This document shows, one piece after another, positions 10,786 through 12,043 of a stretch of 64,000 nt of DNA. Numbering within the stretch: the stretch's first letter is position 1; every line of letters begins with the position of its first letter. This stretch comes from Aurantimicrobium minutum (GTDB lineage Bacteria; Actinomycetota; Actinomycetes; Actinomycetales; Microbacteriaceae), in the NCBI RefSeq assembly GCF_029892845.1, contig NZ_JARXVT010000002.1, positions 310,001-374,000 of the forward strand, read 5' to 3'. The position numbers and the translations under genes are program-made. The notes under the pieces were generated by a model. The model was not told the origin of the DNA. It did not search any database and saw only the letters and a program-made list of their open reading frames with translations.

Positions 10786-11667
10786 GTGAGCAACGAGACA
10801 GGCTTTGGGGCTACCGCTGAGGTAGCCCCTTCCTGTTATCGCCACCCAGATACACCCACCTTTATTCGCTGCCAGCGCTGTGAACGCTCTGTGTGTGTGC
10901 AGTGCCAGGTTCCAGCTCCCGTGGGTGTGATCTGCCCTGAATGTTTAGGCCAGGCTCAGGCTCGTGCACCACGTGTGGGACGAGAAGCCCTGGGCGGCCG
11001 CAGTAATCAAAACCCCGTGGTGACGTACACACTGATTGCCATAACGGCATTGTTCTACGTACTGCAGTGGATTCCTGGCTTAGATGCCACCAGCTACTTG
11101 GCTTATTCGCCTTTGTACAGCTACGGCGAATACGGAGCCATTGGTGCTCCCTATGAGCCGTGGCGCATGATTACCTCTGTTTTTACGCATTCAACAGGCT
11201 TTGTTTTCCACATCCTGCTCAATATGTATACGTTGTGGATTTTTGGCCAAATGTTAGAGCGAATGCTAGGCAAAGCTCGGTTCATCACCCTCTACTTAGC
11301 TTCCGGTCTTGCTGGATCCCTCGGCGTCATGTTCTGGGCACCTCATGACACCTTTGTTGTTGGTGCTTCCGGTGCCATCTTTGGTTTGATGGGCGCGTAT
11401 CTTGTCATTCAACGCAAGCTCGGCGGCGAAACTACCCAGTTACTCGTGCTGGTTGGCATTAACTTGGTCATTGGCTTCTTGCCGGGCATGAGTGTTTCCT
11501 GGCAAGCACACCTCGGAGGTTTGCTCGGAGGAGCATTGCTGGGCTTCATCTTTGTGCAGACCAGGAAGTACACCCAGAAGAAGCTTCAACTTGGCTTGGT
11601 CAGCCTCACTGTGCTCGCGTTTGTGGCTTTAGCCCTCTCACACGCCCCAATGTTTGTGCAGGGTTAA
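10786..11667 (+). CDS. Rhomboid family intramembrane serine protease
   Basis: A 293-residue integral membrane protease that cleaves membrane proteins inside the bilayer. The N-terminal 55 residues hold a zinc-binding B-box-like module (CYRHPDTPTFIRCQRCERSVCVQC...CPEC), common in actinobacterial rhomboids. The catalytic Ser is in GASGAIFGLMGAYL near residue 196, and the catalytic His in AHLGGLLGG near residue 243; FHILLNMYTLWIFG supplies the conserved HxxxN. Six to seven membrane segments are seen. The start is GTG 10786, six bases after ppiA, so the two are likely cotranscribed. Substrates are unknown. Confidence 0.92.
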   Translation: MSNETGFGATAEVAPSCYRHPDTPTFIRCQRCERSVCVQCQVPAPVGVICPECLGQAQARAPRVGREALGGRSNQNPVVTYTLIAITALFYVLQWIPGLDATSYLAYSPLYSYGEYGAIGAPYEPWRMITSVFTHSTGFVFHILLNMYTLWIFGQMLERMLGKARFITLYLASGLAGSLGVMFWAPHDTFVVGASGAIFGLMGAYLVIQRKLGGETTQLLVLVGINLVIGFLPGMSVSWQAHLGGLLGGALLGFIFVQTRKYTQKKLQLGLVSLTVLAFVALALSHAPMFVQG

Positions 11668-11676
11668 CAACGAGAG

Positions 11677-11700
11677 TTATCCACATGGTTGTCCACATGG
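11677..11700 (+). promoter_or_regulatory. Two direct-repeat DnaA boxes
   Basis: TTATCCACATGG and TTGTCCACATGG are adjacent 12-base direct repeats. The first nine bases of each are a perfect DnaA box (the general TTATCCACA and the actinobacterial TTGTCCACA). They lie in the gap between the convergent rhomboid and crgA genes, away from the origin proper. Confidence 0.6.
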
Positions 11701-11704
11701 GGAG

Positions 11705-11722
11705 AATTACACGCGTGTAATT
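11705..11722. repeat. Perfect 18-bp palindrome
   Basis: AATTACACGCGTGTAATT is its own reverse complement. It lies 4 bases after the DnaA box pair and 4 bases before the crgA stop, between convergent genes. With no loop and no T run it is more likely a protein-binding site than a terminator, but this is inference. Confidence 0.6.
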
Positions 11723-11726
11723 AGAG

Positions 11727-11972
11727 TTAGCGCCACCGTGTGGTCATCAGGAAGCCGATGAAGGCAATGCCGAATCCAACCAGGATGTTCCAGGAACCAA
11801 GAGCCAAAATAGGCAGCGTACCCTGGCTGATGTAGAACACGATGATCCAGACGAGACCAATGAGCATGAAGCCAAACATGACGGGCTTGAACCATACGGG
11901 GTTCGGTGCGTCTGCGCCGGTAGCCTCGGGGTTACGAGGAGCCTTCGTGCGCTTCTTCTTTTCTGCAGCCAT
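11727..11972 (-). CDS. crgA: Cell division protein CrgA
   Basis: CrgA is a small membrane protein that bridges FtsZ, FtsQ, FtsI and others at the division site in actinobacteria. The product has 81 residues: a Lys-rich cytoplasmic start (MAAEKKKRTKAPRNP), then two membrane segments at about 29-50 (PVMFGFMLIGLVWIIVFYI) and 58-77 (WNILVGFGIAFIGFLMTT), which is the CrgA pattern. The frame extends upstream to 12008, but ATG 11972 gives the known N-terminus and has TAGACT about 10 bases upstream as a -10. It is encoded opposite to the rhomboid and sortase genes on either side. Confidence 0.92.
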   Translation of the reverse strand: MAAEKKKRTKAPRNPEATGADAPNPVWFKPVMFGFMLIGLVWIIVFYISQGTLPILALGSWNILVGFGIAFIGFLMTTRWR

Positions 11973-12043
11973 AGTGCTCAAAAGTCTACCCGAATTCAGT
12001 ACCTCCACAGGAAGCCCACATCTAGCCGGGTAAAGTTGAGTAC

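Follow-up and report, generated by a model that had tools for sequence, protein, structure and literature searches.

A short non-coding element between the 3' ends of a rhomboid protease gene and crgA of Aurantimicrobium minutum is real, single-copy and deeply conserved, and its mycobacterial counterpart is known but unexplained. The element occupies positions 11677 to 11722 of a stretch of 64,000 nucleotides (NZ_JARXVT010000002.1, positions 310,001 to 374,000; hereafter the window), and combines three DnaA boxes with an 18-bp dyad. Sequence comparison suggests that it probably serves in DnaA control outside the replication origin (oriC). As far as our literature searches show, what is new is that the element is kept so widely next to crgA, with a fixed geometry of its boxes and a conserved dyad. 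The restraint and recycling of DnaA in Actinomycetota are largely unknown. With these results, a cryptic mycobacterial site becomes one widespread and testable module, made up of three boxes in fixed order and the conserved dyad. It is open to study in harmless, fast-growing relatives, and the dyad is where a partner protein could be sought.

Anatomy of the site

The site and its two neighboring genes are composed as follows (window coordinates; E is the expect value of the Pfam match):

11677..11685, plus strand: DnaA box 1, TTATCCACA, perfect consensus
11689..11697, plus strand: DnaA box 2, TTGTCCACA, same direction as box 1, at a pitch of 12 bp from start to start
11698..11706, minus strand: inverted DnaA box 3, TGGGGAGAA, head-to-head with box 2; its minus strand reads TTCTCCCCA, with 2 mismatches
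11705..11722, no strand: 18-bp dyad AATTACACGCGTGTAATT, a perfect palindrome, with the core TTACACNNGTGTAA at 11707-11720
10786..11667, plus strand: rhomboid protease gene (PF01694, E 1.3e-34), convergent neighbor upstream of the site
11727..11975, minus strand: crgA, a gene for a cell division protein (PF06781, E 3.1e-29); the site adjoins its 3' end

The dyad next to the boxes has the form TYACACNNGTGTRA. Box 3 sits between box 2 and the palindrome, with which it shares two bases. The whole site is held in a gap of 59 bp between the rhomboid stop (ending at 11667) and the crgA stop (beginning at 11727), and 4 bp separate the end of the dyad from the stop codon of crgA on the opposite strand. 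An earlier reading made from the letters of the window (the sequence-only reading) had described two DnaA boxes on the same strand with starts 12 bases apart, a perfect 18-bp palindrome, and a location between convergent rhomboid and crgA genes. All three descriptions are correct, both genes being supported by Pfam; the third, inverted box (11698-11706) had been overlooked. Pfam also confirms cyclophilin, sortase and class-I glutamine amidotransferase, along with rhomboid and CrgA, among the genes of the window. The start codon of crgA is unsettled, with an alternative GTG at 12008.

When both motifs are counted over the genome (1.76 Mb), as the sequence-only reading had proposed, the pair and the palindrome are each single-copy. 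Single boxes are unremarkable: in the window they are at the level of chance (25 matches at up to one mismatch, 24.3 expected), and exact TTATCCACA has 18 copies in the genome. The palindrome is a single copy even with 3 mismatches allowed. A same-direction box pair within 25 bases is found exactly once per genome, at this place, in all 8 genomes of the genus that were examined, and the reversed control of this search gives 0 matches in the same genomes. A chance origin was rejected on the basis of the unique palindrome, the one pair per genus genome, and the pattern control and cross-trained models given below. A palindrome dispersed over a regulon was likewise rejected, the exact core being present in 15 of 40 Microbacteriaceae genomes at 1-2 copies each (contexts of the copies uninspected).

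Conservation beside crgA

Checked in relatives, as had been proposed, the pair and the palindrome recur in Microbacteriaceae. The full architecture is present in 8/8 genus genomes, where the gap is exactly 59 bp every time while rhomboid identity drops to 79%; the center of the palindrome is imperfect in one of the eight. The arrangement also recurs 3' of crgA in 80 crgA loci from a scan of public genomes, while other hairpins come and go. These loci are Microbacteriaceae by title except L041 and L074 (Actinobacteria bacterium), both of which are in the training set of model R2 described below. A rhomboid gene stands in the convergent place in 71 of the 80, and the remaining 9 show none in the stretch examined; its distance is 59 bp at the shortest and exceeds 1 kb at the longest (L011, one of the 71, has an impossible gap value).

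The pattern TTATCCACA-N8..28-TTACANNNNTGTAA matches 44 of 394 Actinomycetes genomes, its reversed control matches 0, and crgA and/or a rhomboid gene lies beside the match in all 30 loci fetched. A model that uses sequence alone, built from 60 elements (R1, from alignment A1), matches 339/388 genomes at E<=0.01, a count that also takes in matches to the boxes only. In the window's genome it finds the element at E 3.5e-15, and the next match outside the element, at oriC, has E 0.0067. We checked 50 R1 loci, namely the 30 best (window and training members included) and 20 regions chosen for family diversity, and the 3' end of crgA lies within 312 bp in 47 of them. Only a rhomboid gene adjoins the element in L170, and neither gene does in L156 and L169. 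All of these loci share descent, hence the counts are not independent events.

The exceptions are described here as observations in their own right. L170 (G237) has its element directly after the rhomboid gene, 177 kb from dnaA, and crgA was not found beside it. The element of L156 (2200-2257) is situated away from crgA, between aat-like and undecaprenyl-diphosphatase-like genes (named by eye from translations). One genome is matched by R1 twice, in L168 and in L169 (G333:C1:1543481-1543534); the two places are separated by about 11 kb, one at crgA and the other elsewhere.

The 60 rows of A1 were picked by a score that includes the boxes, the inverted box and the dyad, so that the conservation figures drawn from them are inflated. 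Five of the nine positions of box 1 (T4, T5, C9, C11 and A12) are invariant in this alignment. The pitch from box 1 to box 2 is 12 in 45 rows, 13 in 11 and 11 in 4, and an inverted box with at most 3 mismatches follows 0-3 bp from box 2 in 60/60; shuffled spacers reach such similarity in 7% of cases for box 2 and in 10.6% for the inverted box. ACA and TGT of the dyad arms are also invariant in all 60, and the outer arm bases vary on one side independently of the other. Such one-sided changes are expected of two half-sites read by protein and not of an RNA stem. In mycobacteria-like loci the arms are TCACAC..GTGTGA, and a Nocardioides-like locus has CTACAC..GTGTAG. Two variants of the layout were seen. 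In the rhomboid-crgA gap of L052 (Frigoribacterium endophyticum), the dyad core is swapped for another perfect palindrome, CTACGTCGACGTAG, and the DnaA boxes remain. In L200 and L022, the dyad has boxes to its left and right in mirror image, so that by eye the whole forms a near-palindrome some 32 bp long; a right-hand box falls inside the aligned stretch in 5/60 rows.

Models trained on one group of loci find the element in the other. R2, trained on 45 elements (from the 80-locus set and the genus loci) and run on 30 crgA-centered loci of 18 other genera, matches 16/30 at E<=1e-5 and 24/30 at E<=0.01, including the mycobacteria-like loci L181, L189 and L174 at E<=1e-9, and all 37 R2 matches listed sit at crgA's 3' end. 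The training set of R3 was 14 elements of other families; this model matches 80/80 of the 80-locus set at E<=0.01 and 78/80 at E<=1e-4, and the window at E 2.5e-11; of its 129 matches, only two (weak, both in L022) lie off the 3' side of crgA. Across the phylum, R1 matches 48/198 genomes at E<=1e-4, 36 of them in other classes. Seventeen of these 36 matches are box-only and 19 span the dyad; 18 of the latter were fetched (all but G451), and in 17 a CrgA gene lies no farther than about 370 bp away, on the proper side (exception: L236). No rhomboid gene was found in these other-class stretches by a one-sequence search, hence the constant neighbor of the element looks like crgA rather than the rhomboid gene. 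Element and crgA occupy opposite strands in 14/17 other-class loci and in 68/80 of the 80-locus set (best R3 hit); of the 12 remaining loci, 8 are titled Curtobacterium and one is L079, with the same arrangement. Differing as it does among loci, the orientation of the element relative to crgA can flip.

All 10 of the other-class proteins tested pass the Pfam cut-off for CrgA. The presence of CrgA-family genes in L219-L235, from other Actinomycetota classes, is an observation of its own, unlike the table of a 2013 review that lists crgA as absent from non-actinomycete actinobacteria (PMC4255298).

The element is also placed consistently relative to dnaA. In the window's genome, oriC is the gap after dnaA (G000:C2:307941-308243), and the element lies about 13.4 kb from its end, in agreement with the earlier estimate of roughly 11 kb or more, and 13.8 kb from the end of dnaA. 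The distance was measured in 37 of 44 genomes; in the other 7, dnaA and the element sit close to opposite contig ends, and the length of these contigs is unknown. For G001, G002, G004 and G006, the position of the element was derived from the rhomboid end. In 34/37 genomes the element lies downstream of dnaA by no more than 60 kb, in 19 of them by 9-15 kb, and the three exceptions are at +177, -31 and -84 kb; a distance of 9-35 kb applies to 32/37. Where a single contig carries both, as in four other-class genomes, the distance is 27-41 kb. The three-box part, without the dyad, matches the dnaA-side edge of oriC in 3/4 genomes searched (not L204). The palindrome as a part of oriC was rejected, as it was not seen in the oriC sides inspected.

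Mycobacterial counterpart and possible function

The mycobacterial gene Rv0011c is presumably crgA (a name not used in the mycobacterial DnaA paper). Hicks et al. (2020) mapped DnaA by in vitro DNA affinity purification sequencing (IDAP-seq) in M. tuberculosis and by chromatin immunoprecipitation sequencing (ChIP-seq) in M. smegmatis, and report five shared regions, one of them Rv0010c-Rv0011c, where binding is shown by IDAP-seq, electrophoretic mobility shift assay, and ChIP-seq in M. smegmatis (PMC7738170). The paper calls this site cryptic, its authors having seen nothing in other species that obviously corresponds to it, and describes variants that mimic dnaA alleles, the phenotype being longer cells at an unchanged initiation rate (PMC7738170). 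By position and architecture, we take the window element to be the same element as this site. Both are DnaA-box clusters with a palindrome, 3' of crgA and proximal to the origin, and genomes inferred as mycobacteria share the architecture of the window element. They differ in the arms (TCACAC/GTGTGA in mycobacteria-like loci versus TTACAC/GTGTAA in the window), in the gene after crgA, which is co-directional there (from gene names) and convergent in the window, and in range, the site being reported for mycobacteria only. According to the abstract of another paper, no homologue of the known DnaA regulators has been identified in mycobacteria (PMC5720831). No report of conservation outside mycobacteria was found in a literature search that lacked most subscription papers.

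Known DnaA loci outside oriC either lower the amount of active DnaA (datA, DnaA-box clusters) or restore it (DnaA-reactivating sequences, DARS). For the element beside crgA, a DnaA-activating or recycling (DARS-like) role is favored only slightly over simple titration, and the published phenotype slightly favors activation. DnaA would load onto the three boxes, and the opposed boxes would bring DnaA molecules head-to-head, as at the E. coli DARS core. With a dimeric partner protein or further DnaA molecules on it, the dyad would complete the complex, which would set the amount of active DnaA available once the origin region is copied. Tentatively, and with a little less than even confidence, we hypothesize that the dyad is the target of a dimeric protein common to much of the phylum that acts with DnaA here. 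The element would then be an actinobacterial counterpart of DARS or datA that does without integration host factor (IHF) and Fis, and its retention next to crgA would serve to unite initiator control and a divisome gene in one early-replicating locus.

The dyad may instead represent two weak converging DnaA boxes, which would make the element a DnaA-only cluster of about five boxes. This fits the description of the mycobacterial palindrome as two DnaA-box-like sequences (PMC7738170) and the invariant ACA at the end of the arms, which resembles the 3' end of a box. However, an arm overlaps inverted box 3, an arm 9-mer matches a box at only about 6-7/9 positions (own count), the dyad extends symmetrically to AATTACAC/GTGTAATT, and matches on the oriC side take in the boxes and not the dyad; we regard this version as possible but somewhat doubtful. 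A different matter is the proposal of the sequence-only reading that the site might titrate DnaA or bind another replication or segregation protein. Its DnaA-binding part is well supported by homology, through conservation in close and distant relatives and the bound syntenic site of mycobacteria. The titration part would imply an origin-proximal titration or inactivation site (of the type of datA, the Bacillus cluster, or Streptomyces D78), which doubles soon after initiation and damps re-initiation. Such a sink needs neither an opposed box nor a dyad, only three boxes are clear, and these do not all point one way as the essential boxes of datA do. Changed mycobacterial sites resemble dnaA alleles that are likened to hypomorphs and not to de-repressed DnaA (PMC7738170), and longer cells at an unchanged initiation rate do not clearly fit the loss of a titrator. 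Two of the boxes are of the high-affinity type, 32 of the 37 elements measured are 9-35 kb away from dnaA, and a review passage on B. subtilis and S. coelicolor was counted in favor (PMC5742627); on balance, titration appears rather unlikely.

Gene control seems far less probable. A promoter or terminator role for the neighbors is unlikely, as the gap is convergent and no promoter was called in it, nor any intrinsic terminator (a G+C-rich hairpin with a T run). Compared with shuffles, the gap's minus strand (z -2.15) and its palindrome hairpin (z -3.60) do fold better, but the hairpin reaches just -3 to -3.6 kcal/mol, with no compensatory covariation above shuffles, many relatives carry a separate G+C-rich hairpin in the gap (by eye), and the element stays with crgA despite a differing far neighbor. 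Hence a terminator, or a repressor or activator site for crgA, the rhomboid gene or the next gene, appears improbable; an RNA structure or terminator was rejected for the weak hairpin, the missing covariation and the lack of an Rfam match. Highly improbable, too, is a regulator site unrelated to replication, for example of the HigA2 antitoxin at the mycobacterial locus. HigA2 bound an Rv0010c oligonucleotide in vitro at 8 uM protein, and its search motif is ATCAC-N4..7-GTGAT (PMC11205783), but most aligned elements have TTACAC-type arms and not ATCAC, and the only copy of the palindrome in the window's genome abuts DnaA boxes. MtrA as binder was rejected, its published motif being different.

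A number of results weigh against a conserved, DARS-like element of DnaA control. The exact dyad core is missing from 25/40 Microbacteriaceae genomes, and the exact pattern from 350/394 Actinomycetes genomes; arm variants such as TCACAC or GTGTAG occur. Loci inferred as Streptomyces, and some others, retain boxes without a clean dyad, and the dyad, present in the Microbacteriaceae and mycobacteria-like loci, was not seen in several families with large genomes. R2 gives no match in 6/30 crgA loci of other genera, and R1 none at E<=1e-4 in 150/198 phylum genomes. The rate of replication initiation is unchanged in mycobacterial dnaA mutants (PMC7738170). Proximity to oriC fits titration equally well or better, and the minus-strand hairpin of the palindrome beats 197/200 shuffles in folding. 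The opposed box is separated by 0-3 bp (60/60) versus 5 bp in both DARS cores, and R1 has no match in the E. coli DARS1 or DARS2 regions at E<=1.

Comparison with known DnaA loci

E. coli datA, the B. subtilis clusters and Streptomyces H69, H24 and D78 are, like the crgA element, DnaA-box clusters outside oriC, and differ from it in the number and order of boxes. The Streptomyces clusters are located around oriC, and H69 may, as a guess, be the cluster at crgA; we know of no dyad in any of these loci. The essential boxes of datA all point in one direction and are accompanied by an IHF site, as a review describes (PMC5742627), whereas box 3 of the crgA element is inverted.

In topology, the element resembles DARS. 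The bioD-uvrB and rppH-mutH gaps of E. coli K-12 hold box triplets in which the pitch is 12 bp and the opposed box stands 5 bp away. By their loci and the description in the review, we take these triplets to be the cores of DARS1 and DARS2. According to the same review, a DARS core has three boxes, with box I opposed to boxes II and III and a head-to-head contact (PMC5742627). A same-direction pair at 12-bp pitch with one opposed box is thus common to DARS1, DARS2 and the window. DARS2 further has sites for other proteins (IHF and Fis) adjacent to its boxes, and the crgA element has the dyad in their place. Since topology and pitch are the same, while the gap is shorter and the sequences do not match, the element may work like a DARS without being a DARS.
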